A stretch of 64,000 nt of DNA from Streptomyces sp. 71268 (GTDB lineage Bacteria; Actinomycetota; Actinomycetes; Streptomycetales; Streptomycetaceae). This document shows positions 38,039-50,157 of this stretch, one piece after another. The DNA is taken from positions 5,363,001-5,427,000 of the forward strand of contig NZ_CP114200.1 of NCBI RefSeq assembly GCF_029392895.1. The letters run 5' to 3'. The notes under the pieces were generated by a model that was not told the origin of the DNA, ran no database searches, and was given only the letters and a program-made list of their open reading frames with translations. A program made the position numbers and the translations under genes. How positions within the stretch are numbered: position 1 is the first letter of the stretch; every line of letters begins with the position of its first letter.

Positions 38039-39187
38039 GTGACGTTCCCTGTAATTGGCATGGTCGGCGGGGGCCAGCTCGCGCGTATGACGCACGAGGC
38101 GGGCATCCCCCTCGGCGTCAAGTTCAAGCTCCTCAGCGACACCCCGACGGACTCCGCGGCGCAGGTCGTCGGCGATGTCGTCGTCGGTGACTACCACGAT
38201 CTGGAGACCCTTCGTAGCTTCGCACAAGGCTGTGACGTGATCACGTTCGATCACGAGCACGTGCCGATGGAGCACCTGCGAGCCCTGGAGGCCGACGGCA
38301 TCGCGGTCCGGCCCGGCTCGCGGGCGCTGGTGCACGCCCAGGACAAGGGCGTCATGCGGGCCAGGCTCGACGAGATCGGCGTGCCGTGCCCGCGTCACCG
38401 GATCGTCACCGACCCCGCCGACGTCGCCCGGTTCGCCGCCGAGGGCGACGGCTTCCCCGTCGTCCTGAAGACGGTGCGCGGCGGCTACGACGGCAAGGGC
38501 GTCTGGGTCGTGCGCGACGAGGCCGAGGCGGCCGAGCCGTTCCGCGCCGGCGTGCCGGTGCTGGCCGAGGAGAAGGTCCCCTTCGTGCGTGAGCTGGCGG
38601 CCAACGTGGTGCGCTCGCCGCACGGCCAGGCCGTGGCGTACCCCGTGGTCGAGTCGATCCAGGTGAACGGCGTCTGCGACACGGTCATCGCCCCCGCGCC
38701 CGACCTGGACCCCGAGCTGTCCGCGCACGCGCAGCAGCTCGCCCTGCGGATCGCCGAGGAACTGGACGTCACCGGCCACCTGGCCGTGGAACTCTTCGAG
38801 GTCCAGCGCCCCGACGGCCCCGCGGTGCTGGTCAACGAGCTGGCGATGCGCCCGCACAACTCGGGCCACTGGACCCAGGACGGCGCCGTCACCTCGCAGT
38901 TCGCCAACCACGTGCGCGCCGTGCTCGACCTGCCGCTGGGCGACCCGCGCCCGCGCGCCCGCTGGGCCGTGATGGCCAACGTCCTCGGTGGCGACTACCC
39001 CGACATGTACGGGGCGTACCTGCACTGCATGGCGCGCGACCCTGGCCTGAAGATCCATATGTACGGTAAAGATGTGAAGCCCGGCCGCAAGGTCGGCCAC
39101 GTCAATACCTACGGCGACGACTTGGCCGACGTGCGCGAGCGCGCGAGCCATGCCGCCGGTTACCTGCGAGGAACGATCACGGAATGA
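38039..39187 (+). CDS. purK: 5-(carboxyamino)imidazole ribonucleotide synthase
   Basis: A 382-residue ATP-grasp enzyme that makes N5-CAIR from AIR, bicarbonate and ATP in purine synthesis. The start [17 protein letters not shown] is the PurK signature. [34 protein letters not shown] (ATP-grasp loop) and ELFEVQ...[20 protein letters not shown] (metal-binding Glu/Asn, then ATP/substrate site) are all present. A possible -10 TACCCT (38027-38032) ends 6 bases before GTG 38039, so it may be leaderless. It overlaps purE by ATGA, and the two enzymes work in sequence. Confidence 0.97.
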
Positions 39188-41302: not shown

Positions 41303-41546
41303 CGGCTGGGGCTGCGCCTGCGGTTGGGGCGGGCTGGGTTGGGTGGGGTTGGGCCGAAGCTGGCCTGGCTCTCCCCGCCCCGGCACGGCCGTCTGACCGC
41401 GCGTGGCTGGGCGTGGCGCCATCGCGGTCGTCGGTGATCGATTGATGGCCACTTCTGTCCTTCGCGGACCTCGGCCGCCCACCCACCCCCATGCTGGTGT
41501 CAGCCTCCAGCCGGGAGGACAGCCAGGACAGCCAGGAGGGGCCGCC

Positions 41547-41660
41547 GTGGGCGATCACCGCAAGCCGGACCCGGACCCAGGCCAGGGGAAGCCGCCGCCC
41601 GGCAACTCCGACGGGAAGGTGCCGGACCCGCCACCGCCCTCGGGCAACCGGCGGAAGTAG
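41547..41660 (+). CDS. 37-residue charged Pro-rich peptide, probable RiPP (imiditide-like) precursor
   Basis: This gene is below usual annotation size. GTG 41547 lies 7 bases after a perfect AGGAGG (41534-41539). The product is 37 residues, lacks Cys, Trp and any hydrophobic stretch, is rich in Pro and Gly, and carries many charges (Asp, Lys, Arg). It has one Asp-Gly pair at residues 22-23 (NSDGK), the bond most prone to aspartimide formation. Eight bases after its stop begins a PIMT-like methyltransferase. Imiditides are RiPPs made of a linear multiply charged precursor and such a methyltransferase that esterifies one Asp, which then cyclises to aspartimide. Longer in-frame starts (41445, 41403) have poor codon use. 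Confidence 0.65.
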   Translation: MGDHRKPDPDPGQGKPPPGNSDGKVPDPPPPSGNRRK

Positions 41661-41668
41661 CCGTACCC

Positions 41669-42823
41669 GTGCCCCGACTCCGCCGCCGTCAGACCCGGTT
41701 GGCCAACGCCATGACGAGCAAGGGCCTGTGGCCGGCGGACTCCCCGTGGGTCCGCCCCGCCATGCGGGCGCTACCGCGCCACGCCTTCGCCCCGGACCGG
41801 CTCCGCGCCTGGACCGGCCACGCGTACGAGCCCGTCGACCGGGCCGCGAGCCCGGGCCGGTGGGCCGACCTCGTCTACGGCGGCCCGTACGACTCCACCG
41901 TCATCCAGGTGACGGACGGCCTCCCCACCTCCAGCCTGAGCTGTGAGGCGGTGGTGGCCGACATGCTCGACTCCCTGATGCTGGAGCCGGGCCACGCCGT
42001 CCTCGAACTCGGCGCGGCGACGGGGCGCAACGCGGCGCTCATGGCACACGGCGTCGGCCCCGACGGGCGGGTCACCACCATCGAGGCCGACCCCCGACTG
42101 TCCGACCTCGCGCGGCGCAACGTGTCCGCGGCCGGCGCCCGCGTCACCGTGCTGACCGGCGACGGAACGCGCGGGGCGCCCGCGCACGGCCGCTTCCACC
42201 GGGTCATGGCCACCTACGCGGTCGACCTCGTCCCCTGGGCCTGGGTCGAGCAGACGCGACCCGGCGGCCGGATCGTGGCCCCGTGGGGACGGCTCGGTCA
42301 CGTCGCCCTGACCGTCGCCGCCGACGGCCGCTCGGCGAGCGGTTGGATGCAGGGGCTGGCGACCTTCATGCCCAGTCGCGGAACGGACCAGGGCCGGCCG
42401 TGGGAGACGGTCAGGGGAGCCGCCCCGCCGGACGAGGAGACCCCGATGGCACGGGACGACCTGGCCTCACTGCACACCGACGCCAACCTCCTGTTCGCCC
42501 TGCGGGTCGCCCTGCCCGACGTACGGGTGCGCACCGCGGCGCCCCCCGACCGGCGAGCGACGGCCTGGCTGCACGACGGCCACTCGTCCTGGGCGACCAT
42601 CGTCAGCCCGGCCGACGGACCCACCCTCGCCTACCAGGGCGGCCCGCGTCGCCTCGCCGCCGAACTCGACGCCGCCTGGCGCGACTGGCAACAGGCCGGC
42701 TCGCCCACGGTGTACGACTTCGGCATGACCCGCACCCGCGAGGAACAGTACGTCTGGAGCGGCGACCCGGCGACGGGCAGACGGTGGTGGGTCGAGCGGG
42801 AGCTGCCGCCGGCTGAGGGGTGA
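41669..42823 (+). CDS. PIMT-like O-methyltransferase of RiPP type (imiditide-like)
   Basis: A 384-residue protein-L-isoaspartate methyltransferase homologue, much longer than housekeeping PIMT (about 210-230). The N-terminal helical part is MRALPRHAFAPDRL and a substrate-loop segment is STVIQVTDGLPTSSLSCEAVVADML. Motif I is VLELGAATGRNAALMAHGVG, and RVTTIEADPRLSDLARRN and RFHRVMATYAVDLVPWAWVEQTRPGG follow. The extra C-terminal domain ends with YDFGMTRTREEQYVWSG, a pattern like the C-terminal extension of methyltransferases in lasso, graspetide, lanthipeptide and imiditide clusters. It probably methylates an Asp of the adjacent 37-residue peptide. GTG 41669 is 8 bases after the peptide stop; ATG 41711 is an alternative. 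Confidence 0.82.
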   Translation: MPRLRRRQTRLANAMTSKGLWPADSPWVRPAMRALPRHAFAPDRLRAWTGHAYEPVDRAASPGRWADLVYGGPYDSTVIQVTDGLPTSSLSCEAVVADMLDSLMLEPGHAVLELGAATGRNAALMAHGVGPDGRVTTIEADPRLSDLARRNVSAAGARVTVLTGDGTRGAPAHGRFHRVMATYAVDLVPWAWVEQTRPGGRIVAPWGRLGHVALTVAADGRSASGWMQGLATFMPSRGTDQGRPWETVRGAAPPDEETPMARDDLASLHTDANLLFALRVALPDVRVRTAAPPDRRATAWLHDGHSSWATIVSPADGPTLAYQGGPRRLAAELDAAWRDWQQAGSPTVYDFGMTRTREEQYVWSGDPATGRRWWVERELPPAEG

Positions 42824-42881: not shown

Positions 42882-44084
42882 CTACGTGGCCAGACCGACC
42901 CGGCGCGCCATCTCCAGCAGGCGAGGCCGCGTGCGCTGGTTGAGGACGAAGAGAACGCGAATGACCTCGCGGCTCATCGGGTGCACCGCGGCCATCTCCG
43001 GGGCCACGGCGAAGGCCTGCCCCAGTGCTCGTTCGGCCTCCTCGTACCCGCGTACCGCGAGGTGGGCACGGGCGGCGTCGATGGCCAGGCGCCCCACCCG
43101 CGTGGGGCGGAGGCCGGCGGGCGGGGAACTCAGCAGGGGTGTCGCCATCCGCGCCGCGTCGGCCGGCTTGTCCAACTCGATGTGGGCGGCCAGCTCGTAG
43201 AGGGCGACGTTGCCGGGCCCGAACGTCAGGTTGTGCGCGAGCACGTCCCTCGGGAGTTGTTCCGCCAGCGCCTTGGCCTTGGTGACGTGCGCCTCGGTCG
43301 CTGCGGCATCCCGGTGCCGCGAGGCGAGGACGACGCCGCGCAGGTGCAGCGAACCCAGGGAGACCAGCCGCTCGGGCGTGGTCCCGAGAGCGTGCGTGGC
43401 TCGCTCGTACGCGCTGATGGCCCGCTCGATGACGGCCAGCCCGTCGTCGTACTGCCCGGCGGTCTGGTACGTGCCGGCCTCGTTCCACGCCGCGGACGCC
43501 TCGACGTCCGGGGCCCACGCCTGCCGGGCTGCCCACATCTGTCGGGAGACGATCATGTCGGCGAGGTCGGCCTGCCCGAGCCGGTGGGCTACGCCGTACG
43601 CACACCCGTACAGGTCGGCCACCTGTGCCCAGACCGTCGCGTCCCCGGGGGCCTCGAACGCGCTCGCCGTGGCCTGGCCCAGCAGCTTGGGCAGCAGCGC
43701 CAGCAGGTCCAGGTAGCGGGTCCGCGCCCGCAGGTCCACCGCCTCGCGTACCGCGCTGAGCAAGGCCGCGGGCGGTAGCGCGTCCTCGCGGGGCAGGGTG
43801 TGCCGGCGAACGGCCGCACGGAGCACGTCGAGCCCTTCGGCCTGCTGCGACGTGTCGGCGAACGGCTGTCCGTAGACCCGGGCGGTCGTGATGCGCATGG
43901 CCGCCGCAACTGCGGCGACGAACTGCGGAGTCGCGGGCCGCAGGCCGGTCTCCACCTTGCTGAGATAGCTCACCGAGAACCCACTGCGCTTCGCGAGCTT
44001 GGCCTGTCCGATGCCCCGCGCTTTGCGGAGGACGGCGATGTTCTCTCCGGGCGTTGGCGGCGTGTCCGCCGTGGTGCTGCTCAT
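42882..44084 (-). CDS. XRE-family regulator with TPR-like C-terminal domain
   Basis: A 400-residue protein. The N-terminal HTH_31/XRE domain is about residues 10-70: GENIAVLRKARGIGQAKLAKRSGFSVSYLSKVETGLRPATPQFVAAVAAAMRI. The rest is all-alpha, about eight tandem helix pairs rich in Ala/Leu (such as SLGSLHLRGVVLASRHRDAAATEAHVTKAKALAEQL), TPR-like, typical of Streptomyces regulators that may sense peptides or partner proteins. The start at 44084 removes a poorly supported 13-residue extension. It converges on the RiPP methyltransferase (58-base gap) and diverges from the unknown/Nudix pair, with a strong palindrome between. It could regulate either side. Confidence 0.85.
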   Translation of the reverse strand: MSSTTADTPPTPGENIAVLRKARGIGQAKLAKRSGFSVSYLSKVETGLRPATPQFVAAVAAAMRITTARVYGQPFADTSQQAEGLDVLRAAVRRHTLPREDALPPAALLSAVREAVDLRARTRYLDLLALLPKLLGQATASAFEAPGDATVWAQVADLYGCAYGVAHRLGQADLADMIVSRQMWAARQAWAPDVEASAAWNEAGTYQTAGQYDDGLAVIERAISAYERATHALGTTPERLVSLGSLHLRGVVLASRHRDAAATEAHVTKAKALAEQLPRDVLAHNLTFGPGNVALYELAAHIELDKPADAARMATPLLSSPPAGLRPTRVGRLAIDAARAHLAVRGYEEAERALGQAFAVAPEMAAVHPMSREVIRVLFVLNQRTRPRLLEMARRVGLAT

Positions 44085-44141
44085 GGGGGGAGTTTCCCAT
44101 CGTAGGGGCCTGCCATAGCCCACTCATCCCACCCAGTTGTG

Positions 44142-45937: not shown

Positions 45938-46397
45938 CTTCGCGACCTGCCCCCTTCCCTTCCTCCGACCCGCTCGCCGCAGCTCGCGCGCTCAACCGGG
46001 GTCGCGCCCGCTCTCGCGGAGCCCCCGCCCTCGTTCTCCCTCCCGGCCCTCCCTCCTCGCCTTCACTCTCGCCCCCGTGCCTGCCTCTGTCCCGCAGGCC
46101 GCACCTGGCTCACGGCCCTCTGCCCGGCCCCTGCCCTTACCCCCACCCCGCCCGCCCCGCCGTGGCATCCCCCAGGGGACCCGTCGTACCCCGGTACTAC
46201 GTCCGGCCGGCCCGCAGCGGACCGCGGGCTGACGAGTGGGGGCGGCGGCGTGCCTAACGTCGGATGTGGGCCACGGGAGCGCCGGGCCCGCACGTCAGGG
46301 CGTACGCCGACGCACCTGCTCTGACGTGCTCCGACACCCGCGGGCCAGGCCGCGGGGCGGCCCAACCAGGGGGCGCGGCGATGACGGGAGCACAGCG
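45938..46397. other. non-coding spacer with a long C/T-rich + strand
   Basis: No gene. From about 45935 to 46175 the + strand is mostly C and T (runs such as CCTCGTTCTCCCTCCC), a marked strand asymmetry. The part from 46180 to 46397 should hold the ABC operon promoter; no clear hexamers are seen. ATG 46398 is preceded by GGGAGCACAGCG. Confidence 0.45.
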
Positions 46398-47390
46398 ATG
46401 ATCAGGGCTTACGGGCTCACCAAGCGGTACGGCGAGAAGACCGTCGTGCGGGACCTGACCTTCACCGTGCGGCCGGGTACGGTCACCGGGTTCCTCGGCC
46501 CGAACGGCGCCGGCAAGTCGACCACGATGCGGATGCTGCTCGGGCTCGACGCCCCCACCAGCGGCCGGTCCACGATCGGCGACCGCGCGTACGTCAGCCA
46601 CCCCGCGCCGCTGCGCCATGTCGGCGCGCTGCTCGAAGCCCGCTCCTTCCATCCCGGCCGCACGGCCCGGGCGCACCTCCAGGCCCTCGCGCACACGCAC
46701 GGCATCCCATGCCGCCAGGTGGACGCGGTCATCGACCGGGTGGGGCTCGGCGAGGCGGCGGACCGGCGGGTCAAGGGGTTCAGCCTCGGCATGGGGCAAC
46801 GGCTCGGCATCGCCGCCGCGCTGCTGGCCGACCCGGCCACGGTCATCCTGGACGAGCCGGTCAACGGGCTCGACCCGGAGGGCGTGCTGTGGATACGCAA
46901 CCTGCTCAAGTCACTCGCGGCCGAGGGCCGTACGGTCTTCGTCTCCTCGCACCTGATGAGCGAGATGGCGGTCACCGCGGAGCACCTGATCATCATCGGC
47001 CGCGGCCGGCTGCTCGCCGACACCACCGTGGAGCAGTTCGTACGCGACGCGGGGCTCGGGGAGATCACGGTCGTCTCGCCGGAGGCGGACCGGCTACGAA
47101 CCCTGCTCGCGGGCCCTGGCGTGCGGATCGAGGCGGCCGACGACGGCCCGGACACGCTGCGCGTCACCGGCGCCGACGGTGAGCGCATCGGCCGCACCGC
47201 GGCGGCACACGGCATACCCCTCTTCGAACTCACCCCGCGCCGCGCCTCGTTGGAGGAGGCGTTCATGGAGCTGACGCGGGACGCGGTGGAGTACGTGGCC
47301 CACGCCGACGACCCGACCGCCCCTCAGTCCCCCTCCACCTCCACTCCCACCACGCAACAAGCCACCGCGTCCCAAGGAGCCGCCACGTGA
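46398..47390 (+). CDS. ABC transporter ATP-binding protein (DrrA/CcmA-like)
   Basis: A 330-residue ATPase: Walker A GPNGAGKST (about residue 38), signature region FSLGMGQRLGIAAALL (a variant of LSGGQ common in this group), Walker B VILDEPVNGLDPEGV and switch His in VFVSSHLMSEM. A C-terminal regulatory extension of about 90 residues is typical of ABC-2 ATPases for drugs or lantibiotics. It energises the ABC-2 permease encoded next (4-base GTGA overlap). The transporter is followed by a NarL-type two-component system, suggesting a signal-induced export or resistance module. Confidence 0.94.
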   Translation: MIRAYGLTKRYGEKTVVRDLTFTVRPGTVTGFLGPNGAGKSTTMRMLLGLDAPTSGRSTIGDRAYVSHPAPLRHVGALLEARSFHPGRTARAHLQALAHTHGIPCRQVDAVIDRVGLGEAADRRVKGFSLGMGQRLGIAAALLADPATVILDEPVNGLDPEGVLWIRNLLKSLAAEGRTVFVSSHLMSEMAVTAEHLIIIGRGRLLADTTVEQFVRDAGLGEITVVSPEADRLRTLLAGPGVRIEAADDGPDTLRVTGADGERIGRTAAAHGIPLFELTPRRASLEEAFMELTRDAVEYVAHADDPTAPQSPSTSTPTTQQATASQGAAT

Positions 47391-48262: not shown

Positions 48263-48614
48263 GCGACGGGTTCGCGCGGCGCGCGGGCCGGGTGCGTGGC
48301 GCCGGGCGTACGCCCACCCGCGGGGCGGGCGGCCGGCGCGCGGGGTACGAGGATGGTGCCGGGTGGGACGGCGTACGGGCGGCCGGCCCGACACCTCGCC
48401 GGCCGATGTGAGGCCGACGAGGTGTCGATACGGGACTGGCCGACGCAGGCTTGGCACGGGGCCGGCCGAAGCAGGGACGGCACGGGACCGGTCGGCGTGG
48501 GCCGGTACGGGGGAGGCCGACGAGAGGTCGGCGAGGGTTGGCCGACATGTCGGCCGGCGAGGTCGGCCGACGTGGGGTCGGTACGGGGAGAGTGACGAAC
48601 GAGGGGTGGCGGGG
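48263..48614. repeat. spacer of GGCCGAC/GTCGGCC repeats with a 16-bp palindrome
   Basis: Between permease and kinase there is no gene. From 48400 to 48600 the words GGCCGACG, GGTCGGC and GGCCGATG recur about a dozen times. GGCCGACATGTCGGCC at 48540-48555 is a perfect 16-bp palindrome. These may be repeated regulator sites or simple slippage repeats. Confidence 0.5.
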
Positions 48615-50157
48615 ATGAGTGCGGTCGGGGGCGTCCAGGAGTGGACGCCGAGTGGCCCGTATCCGATCCGATGGGCGCACCGGGCCGCGCGGCGGGTGTG
48701 TGCCCTCGACGCCCGCCGCCCGGTGCTGTGGGACGCGTTGCTGACGCTGGTGTTCGCCATCGCGGCCTGCGTGGACGTGGGCGGCGGCAACTGGCGGCGG
48801 ATCGCCCACTCCGGCGAGGTGCCGGTGGCGCTGGTGGCGGCCATGGCGGCGGGCTTCGTCCTGGCACTGCCCTGGCATCGCAGACGCCCGCTGGCCGCGT
48901 TCGCCGTCATGACGGCGGTCGGCCTGGTGGACGCGTGGGTGGGTACGCGGCTCCAGGTCGGCCAGTTGGGTCAGTTGATCGTGCTCTTCTGCATCGCCCT
49001 GCGGCTACCGGGCAAGGCCCTGACGGTCGCCGGCGCGCTGGTCGTCACGCAGGCGGCGGTGGGCGCCTCGCGCTGGCCCGAGGGGGACTGGGGGCAGGCG
49101 TTCCTCCCCGTCGTCACGGGCAGCGTCGTGGTGGCGCTGCTCGGCATAGCGGTCCGCAGCCGCCGCGACTACACGGCCTCGCTCGTGGATCGGGCCCGCC
49201 AGCTTGAGGTCGAACGCGACCAGCAGGCCCAACTCGCCGCCGCGGCCGAACGCGCCCGCATCGCCCGCGAGATGCACGACATCATCGGCCACAACCTCTC
49301 GGTCATCACCGGCCTGGCCGACGGCGGTTCGTACGCGGCGCGCAAGAACCCCGAGCGCGCGGCTCAGGCGCTGACGGCGATCGGCGCCACCAGCCGGCAG
49401 GCGCTGGACGAGTTGCGCAGACTGCTCGGCGTGCTGCGCGACGACGACGACACGGACGCGCGGCCCGAGCCCGAACTCGGTCCGCAGCCCACGCTCGCCG
49501 ACCTCGGCACACTCGTGGACCGGGTACGGGAGGCGGGGCTACCGGTCCGCCTGTCGGAGCGCGGCACGCCCGCGCCGGGCTCACCCGGCCGCGAGCTGAC
49601 CGTGTACCGGGTCGTACAGGAGGCGCTGACCAACACGCTCAAGCACGCGGGCCCGCAGGCCACGGCCATGGTCGAGGTGACGCACGCGCCGCACGCGCTG
49701 TCCGTCGCCGTCACCGACACGGGTGGGCCCGTGCGCCGGCTACGCCACGCACAGCTCGCGACGGGCGACGGCCACCAGGGCAGGGGCCTGCGCGGCATGC
49801 GCGAGCGGGCCGCGCTCTACGACGGGGCCCTCACCGCAGGGCCACGCTCGGACGGCGGCTGGCACGTACGCCTGGAACTCCCCGCGTCCACCACCACCCC
49901 ACCCCCCACGCCCACCAGCCCCCGGCGGCGCGGACCCCGAGCCGGCCCCGCGAGCCGAGCCCGGTGCGCCCGACCCCGACCCCCAGGACGCGGACGCCGC
50001 CGCGACGGACGCTGTGCGCGCCAAACGGGCGACGCGCGAGAGGCGAGACGCGCGGGCCACGGGCACTGAGCGCGGGACGCGCGAGAGGCGGGACGGGCGG
50101 GCGACGGGTACAGAGCGCGGGACGCGCGAGAGGCGAGAGGCGGGTGGTGCGTCGTGA
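48615..50157 (+). pseudogene. NarL-type sensor histidine kinase with +1 frameshift in its C-terminal tail
   Basis: Five or so N-terminal membrane helices (about 35-160), then HisKA_3 with ERARIAREMHDIIGHNLSVITGLADGG (phospho-His about 221) and an HATPase domain ending in VAVTDTGG...GRGLRGMRERAALYDG. All catalytic parts lie before the break. As written the frame ends at 50069 after a tail with many A-ending codons, unlike coding DNA here. Removing one C from the C5 run at 49919-49923 gives a tail with normal third-position G+C and a TGA at 50155-50157 that overlaps the regulator start as GTGA, the arrangement expected in this operon. The kinase is probably functional either way. Confidence 0.82.
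50031..50135. repeat. 45-bp in-frame tandem repeat in the kinase tail
   Basis: The word GACGCGCGAGAGGCG recurs at 50031, 50076 and 50121, exactly 45 bases (15 codons) apart, within imperfect 45-base units. In the corrected kinase frame it encodes repeated charged T-R-E-R-R segments. Confidence 0.75.

Follow-up and report, generated by a model that had tools for sequence, protein, structure and literature searches.

Imiditides and type I pamtides

The imiditides, or type I pamtides, are a class of RiPPs whose two-gene loci pair a Gly/Pro/Asp/Lys-rich precursor with a PIMT homologue (PMC13001092, PMC10787088). According to the same accounts, this homologue methylates an aspartate of the linear peptide, after which an aspartimide forms that can open to isoaspartate or aspartate. 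The class precursor is described as about 45 residues long and devoid of the tetracysteine motif, and the mean composition published for type I precursors is 17.3% Gly, 16.8% Pro, and 10.2% Asp (PMC10787088). The review of the class counts 1,414 predicted type I members, most frequent in Streptomyces and Actinomadura (PMC13001092).

The closest described pairs are SpaA/SpaM from Streptomyces sparsogenes and NmaA/NmaM from Nonomuraea maritima. The SpaA aspartimide is reported to be fully hydrolyzed by 24 h in vitro, and in NmaA a Gly at the n+1 position lowered the accumulation of methylated species (PMC13001092). The same review names electrophilic traps, immunity factors, and membrane interaction as possible roles, and considers the biological function of aspartimide RiPPs the larger open challenge.

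Layout of the locus

The locus described here lies in a window of 64,000 nucleotides, the whole stretch of DNA that was analyzed, which corresponds to positions 5,363,001-5,427,000 of the 8.38 Mb single-contig genome of Streptomyces sp. 71268. On the forward strand, a GTG-initiated gene of 37 codons plus TAG (41547..41660) follows an AGGAGG sequence (41534..41539) that matches a ribosome-binding site and probably serves as one. Eight bases separate the TAG from the GTG start of a second forward-strand gene (41669..42823), predicted to encode a PIMT-like peptide aspartyl O-methyltransferase of 384 residues with an extra C-terminal domain. Positions and translations agree with the arrangement given in a preliminary description of this DNA, as do translation and composition with its picture of a Cys-free, charged, Pro/Gly-rich peptide with a single Asp-Gly bond at residues 22-23. 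Of the named relatives that the searches brought up, Streptomyces buecherae is the closest, with an enzyme that is 94% identical and a precursor peptide that is the same except for the start-codon letter.

Upstream of the pair, a Pfam scan recognizes purK, purE, and an M19 dipeptidase. Downstream lie an HTH regulator gene on the other strand (42882-44123) and, farther away, an ABC transporter ATPase (46236-47390) and a histidine kinase (48363-50069). The same scan, covering the neighbors at about 36-50 kb, found no lanthipeptide, lasso, or graspetide enzymes. The preliminary description had also denied the presence of any ATP-grasp enzyme, which needs qualification: there is one 2.4 kb upstream, but it is only purK (38039-39187), which stands beside purE, belongs to ordinary purine synthesis, and is the sole ATP-grasp protein among the scanned neighbors.

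The precursor peptide

The 37 residues of the precursor, VGDHRKPDPDPGQGKPPPGNSDGKVPDPPPPSGNRRK, include 11 Pro (29.7%), 6 Gly (16.2%), 5 Asp (13.5%), and 7 Lys/Arg, with Lys alone at 10.8%; Cys and aromatic residues are absent. Family-wide, Pro, Gly, Asp, and Lys stand at 27.2%, 15.8%, 8.0%, and 10.9%. The Pro content of the peptide exceeds the published type I mean of 16.8%. The earlier suggestion that Pro-richness marks an unusual member or a new subgroup is nevertheless unsupported, since the published accounts describe richness in Gly/Pro/Asp(/Lys) as the norm for type I precursors. With no Cys, the peptide lacks the two CXXCXGXG motifs that surround the Asp in type II pamtides (cysimiditides).

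The small frame is a real gene, beyond what chance would produce. Its 37 codons are under purifying selection, with a mean pS of 0.59 and a mean pN of 0.24 among 13 representatives of 18 homologues; pN is below pS in 78/78 pairs in the true frame, against 9/78 and 0/78 in the shifted frames of the same DNA, where pN exceeds pS on average. All four differences past the start codon between this gene and that of S. buecherae are synonymous, and other genomes show the same start and frame as well as Asp22. When annotated precursors were sought with a 44-residue relative, the one cluster found was a hypothetical protein from Streptomyces spiramenti.

Conservation was assessed in an alignment of the 61 precursor sequences scoring at least 39 bits, out of 69 distinct profile matches. 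Apart from the start-codon letter, this precursor and that of S. buecherae, both among the 61, are identical; two others (L140 and L149) have no recognizable N-terminal part. Among the eight matches below 39 bits that were left out, N-x-D-G is present in four (L052, L160, L053, and L058) and N-x-D-Q in one (L056), two are without N-x-D-G (L019 and L150), and one (L064) resembles chance. Five residues are found in 61/61 aligned precursors (G14, P17, N20, D22, and G33), and the invariant D22 sits inside a PPPGN-x-DG core. Mean column entropy is lowest at positions 14-26 (0.64 bits), with 1.26 bits at 2-13, 1.35 at 27-33, and 0.87 at 33-37. Conserved acidic/basic residues at the N-/C-termini are described for the class; here the C-terminus agrees, with H/R35 (61/61), R/K36 (58/61), and K37 (58/61), and the N-terminus is mixed, with E/D/K at position 3, E or R at position 5, and K6 in 56/61. 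Cys occurs in a single precursor of the 61, that of S. philanthi (L005). These features combine into the subfamily signature G-x-PPPGN-[SA]-DG-Q-V-P ... G-x-[HR]-[RK]-K.

Asp22, encoded by the forward-strand codon GAC at 41610..41612, begins the sole Asp-Gly of the peptide. Across the alignment, residue 23 is Gly in 56 sequences, Ser in 3, Asp in 1, and Val in 1, so that Asp22 is never followed by Pro; L158, L133, L129, and L147 are among the carriers of Ser, Val, or Asp. Asp10 is present in 46/61 precursors and is mostly unfit because the next residue, in 38 of these 46, is a Pro, whose lack of an NH prevents aspartimide closure. Asn20 is disfavored as the cyclizing residue because position 21 is Pro in one of the 61 sequences. 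These two points leave Asp22 as the site that fits, and from the alignment and by analogy with the described systems we infer that it is the residue modified.

The same conservation bears on a different reading of the small frame, namely that it encodes a regulatory leader peptide whose PPP/PPPP runs would hold up ribosomes and thereby adjust how the methyltransferase is translated, the true substrate being encoded elsewhere. Pro runs can stall ribosomes, and a short upstream gene with two such runs and close spacing (8 bases here) would suit this role. Stalling at Pro, however, would need none of the Asn, the Asp, and the basic end that are conserved here along with G14, P17, and G33, and comparable two-gene loci are reported in the class literature to yield a modified precursor. 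A leader peptide is accordingly judged very unlikely, and the peptide is treated below as the probable substrate of its neighbor.

The methyltransferase

The enzyme matches the Pfam PCMT family at 90 bits and falls under every NCBIfam cut-off. Its best model is that of graspetide methyltransferases (TIGR04188; 212.9 bits, cut-off 380), and it scores 129.1 bits against that of FxLD lanthipeptide methyltransferases (TIGR04364; cut-off 320), 73 bits against the pimt model TIGR00080 (cut-off 159), and 85.6 bits against NF001453 (cut-off 188). An AF2 model computed from a 54-row alignment has a mean pLDDT of 94.1. With this model, Foldseek ranks the T. maritima PIMT 1DL5 first, aligned over 368-369 columns that include the C-terminal domain, at 19-20% identity with an rmsd of 8.5-8.9 and a TM-score of 0.52 by query length; the other PIMTs among the best 16 rows align over 210-253 columns. 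A C-terminal domain common to 1DL5 and RiPP-associated PIMT homologues has been described (PMC10787088). The PCMT match, the model, and the full-length match to 1DL5 all bear out the earlier reading of a PIMT homologue with an additional C-terminal domain. The motif then taken as its RiPP signature, GMTRTREEQYVW at residues 352-363, finds no support in that role: the review names WXXXGXP as the motif of RiPP-associated PIMTs (PMC13001092), which corresponds to WQQAGSP at residues 340-346 in the C-terminal domain (42686..42706, forward strand). By pattern search, WXXXGXP falls within the final 90 residues in 100 of 121 proteins, this enzyme included.

In a 40-row tree, which leaves out L125 and L033 and uses re-extracted sequences for L122, L124, L126, and L128, the 28 rows of the enzyme's family form one clade (100/100). 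Its sister is the group of L008, a pamtide-like locus of the same genome (fork 80/80). With midpoint rooting, E. coli Pcm falls outside the family clade on a long branch, which is the opposite of the clustering with a housekeeping PIMT that the preliminary description had named as evidence against its proposal. The graspetide-type enzymes of this genome occupy a separate, well-supported branch. A tethered single-chain AF2 model leaves the precursor disordered and without sign of docking (residues 1-13, 15-21, and 23-40 at pLDDT < 50); it says nothing either way about docking.

Three ready assignments were rejected on these data: (i) housekeeping PIMT (pcm), given pimt models below cut-off, Pcm outside the clade, and a length of 384 residues vs about 210; (ii) graspetide methyltransferase, given a TIGR04188 score below 380 bits and no maturase among the scanned neighbors; and (iii) FxLD lanthipeptide methyltransferase, given a TIGR04364 score below 320 bits and no lanthipeptide domains among the scanned neighbors.

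Two of these ideas have broader forms. One holds that the enzyme is a protein-repair PIMT, converting isoAsp to Asp, and that the peptide is merely a substrate that ages at Asn20 or Asp22. Membership in PCMT is compatible with this, as is the extra domain, which the T. maritima PIMT, annotated as repair-type, also possesses. The 73 bits of the pimt model against its cut-off of 159 and the position of Pcm outside the family argue the other way, and a dedicated tiny substrate gene beside the enzyme has no obvious use in repair, so that this reading appears extremely unlikely. The other holds that the methyltransferase is a secondary tailoring enzyme in a larger graspetide-type pathway with its cyclizing enzyme elsewhere in the genome. 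Here the nearest NCBIfam model is indeed TIGR04188, the genome has two loci that combine a TIGR04187 maturase with a TIGR04188 methyltransferase (L011 and L013), and most characterized PAMTs are described as needing a cyclic or hairpin substrate (PMC10787088). Against it stand the 212.9 bits where 380 are required, the separate branch of the graspetide-type enzymes of this genome, and the flanks of 22 regions around enzyme copies, in which no enzyme gene is consistent; a tailoring role is hardly to be expected.

The genome holds further PIMT-like genes. At L008 (5,631,982), L009 (5,746,214), and L010 (2,866,638), small Pro/Gly/Asp-rich frames lie directly upstream of the enzyme, for a total of four type I pamtide-like loci with the one studied here. 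L011 (4,576,512) and L013 (3,165,213) have a TIGR04187 ATP-grasp maturase, over its cut-off, beside a methyltransferase over the TIGR04188 cut-off. L012 also passes TIGR04188, with no precursor or maturase recognized nearby. At L014 (4,824,313) and L016 (4,440,126), the PIMT-like enzyme immediately follows a DUF397 gene and an HTH-like regulator.

Pairing across genomes

The precursor profile was derived from precursors adjacent to the enzyme and then used for genome-wide searches; for this reason, the linkage tests from the two sides are not wholly independent. Of 295 Streptomyces genomes, 18 carry the enzyme (E<=1e-60) and 26 match the precursor profile (E<=0.01). Seventeen of these 26 reach E<=1e-10, in 18 places; at 17 of the 18 the enzyme lies within the 1.5 kb fetched, and 16 genomes are common to the precursor and enzyme sets. 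Across 297 Streptomycetaceae genomes, the precursor is matched at 58 places in 50 genomes (E<=1e-4) and the enzyme at 55 places in 47 genomes (E<=1e-60). The enzyme is directly downstream of the precursor at 51/58, and the precursor is directly upstream of the enzyme, on the same strand, at 51/55. Match-to-match gaps measure 8-77 bases in 50 of the 51 pairs and 402 in the remaining one, where the enzyme match is broken across two frames. A small frame that was not conserved beside homologous methyltransferases would have counted against the original proposal; these figures show the contrary. Pairing is near-strict, not absolute.

The exceptions are of several kinds. Among the seven unpaired precursors, L144, L145, and L149 adjoin only partial or frame-split enzyme matches; for the other four (L146, L147, L148, and L150, which is partial), the 4.5-6 kb fetched contains no enzyme match. 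Among the four unpaired enzymes, L152 has a divergent precursor upstream, and a pattern search saw no precursor at L151, L153, and L154. The genus sample adds an orphan precursor with Asp-Ser in G121 (L051), with no enzyme match in the fetched stretch, and remnants in G150 and G005 (L052 and L053). In G224 (L019/L054), a truncated precursor runs in frame into the methyltransferase and the Asp-Gly site is gone. The searches found the enzyme without a precursor in S. zagrosensis (L002) and S. sp. SID3212 (L004), and in S. philanthi a precursor with Asp22 is accompanied by an enzyme match split between frames. Precursors that look intact and have no enzyme match in the fetched stretch are those of L051 and of L146, L147, and L148 (G585, G663, and G698); in L147, Asp-Asp replaces Asp-Gly.

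Over 24 rows, distances between precursors correlate modestly with those between enzymes (rho 0.39, permutation p 0.004). A sample of 296 genomes from across the phylum contains seven that match the precursor profile, this one included; the other six are weak (E 0.001-0.008). Two of the weak matches (L063 and L064) were unconvincing on inspection, and L058 is a sister-group precursor beside a 36% identical enzyme.

Flanks and possible mobility

In 22 regions around enzyme copies, colinear flanks are common to close kin only: (i) this genome, S. buecherae, and S. philanthi, (ii) G135 and G113, and (iii) two copies in G096. The gene upstream of the G096 copies weakly matches G164 at the same position, the remaining flank matches are weak and at varying positions, and no third gene recurs consistently. 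The M19 dipeptidase occurs in 60/61 Streptomyces genomes, and the cassette adjoins it at 2 of the 30 dipeptidase loci fetched, those of this genome and S. buecherae. Because flanks are mostly not common between species, the two genes seem to travel alone.

A DUF397/XRE regulator was considered as a fixed partner after DUF397 genes were seen within 1.5 kb of 3/10 PAMT-like genes of this genome (L009, L014, and L016). DUF397-like frames occur at 3/10 L014-type loci, the one in this genome included, and at 3/42 loci of the enzyme's own family, by a pattern that undercounts (it missed the L085 gene, and L002 and L003, outside the 42, have DUF397 genes too). Since the partnership is not fixed, DUF397 was dropped as an explanation. 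The weak tblastx matches whose positions vary (L002, L003, L077, L079, L083, and L085) may, judged by eye, come from abundant DUF397/XRE-type regulators. At L078 (G186) and L085 (G028), a second PIMT-type methyltransferase-like frame lies beside the locus on the opposite strand.

Proposed chemistry and possible function

The two genes very probably form an imiditide/type I pamtide locus modified at Asp22, with a chemistry modeled on SpaA/SpaM and NmaA/NmaM. By this analogy, which underlies every chemical step, the 37-residue peptide would be translated and its unmodified linear form taken as substrate by the PIMT-like enzyme. The enzyme would methylate the Asp22 side chain with S-adenosylmethionine as the donor (+14 Da). 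Attack by the backbone NH of Gly23 would next expel methanol without enzyme help to give the aspartimide (-18 Da), and hydrolysis would then yield a mixture of isoAsp22 and Asp22 (0 Da). Since Gly at n+1 lowers the methylated species in NmaA, little ester is expected here. The -18 Da product predicted earlier stands as the expected aspartimide, and a stable form of it would be just one part of the outcome: the SpaA aspartimide hydrolyzes completely within 24 h in vitro, and the end product may therefore have the unmodified mass.

A more speculative and rather doubtful proposal concerns function. The locus could be a two-gene module of the Streptomycetaceae that is complete in itself and moves horizontally, with the entire 37-mer as its uncleaved product. 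The modified peptide would then act within the producing cell instead of being secreted as an antibiotic, and its aspartimide at Asp22 would serve as a slow chemical switch or a covalent trap. The proposal is prompted by a center that is the most conserved part of the peptide, conserved residues at both ends, and the fact that no protease, exporter, or immunity gene was seen traveling along. If the two genes do travel alone, any model calling for dedicated export or immunity genes has to locate these elsewhere in the genome.

The subfamily offers a compact test case for the class, with an invariant site, natural n+1 residues (Gly, Ser, Val, and Asp), a partner that is seemingly broken or absent in several genomes, and four loci in one genome. 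To the published picture these data add the subfamily signature, a pairing that is close to strict, natural variation at n+1, cases in which a partner is lost or broken, and the apparent mobility of the bare two-gene unit.

Comparison with known systems

The locus combines a precursor and a PIMT homologue, without the primary enzyme of another RiPP class among the scanned neighbors, with the precursor make-up of type I members and a C-terminal domain bearing WXXXGXP. Nearly all sequence-level traits of the class are thus present, the charge of the N-terminus being the mixed case. The conserved pair, an enzyme apart from Pcm, and Asp22 as the sole invariant Asp likewise favor the imiditide assignment made at the outset. 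On the sequence evidence, this is a well-supported further imiditide/type I pamtide of an already described class, and the subfamily is expected to be within the published type I list.

Compared by description, SpaA/SpaM (PMC10787088) has the same two-gene locus; SpaA is a linear Gly/Pro/Asp-rich precursor with a conserved Asp near Pro/Gly and a basic C-terminus, and SpaM, like the enzyme here, is a PIMT homologue with an extra C-terminal domain. Recognition through the C-terminus has been reported for SpaA. NmaA/NmaM (PMC13001092) is alike, again by description, in class, two-gene layout, and, presumably, chemistry. It differs in that His follows the modified Asp of NmaA where Gly follows here, and the conservation of positions 33-37 in the present precursor family is a further difference.

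L008 of the same genome and its relatives L056 and L058 resemble this locus in having, ahead of a PIMT homologue, a small precursor that contains PPG-[ND]-x-D and finishes in a G-x-HRK-like sequence; their enzymes form a separate neighboring clade, and their precursors are without the PPPGN-x-DGQVP core. The TIGR04188 graspetide methyltransferases of L011 and L013 have the fold family and C-terminal domain in common with the enzyme but act beside an ATP-grasp maturase and belong to a distinct branch. The T. maritima PIMT 1DL5 is the best structural match, C-terminal domain included, at 19-20% sequence identity.
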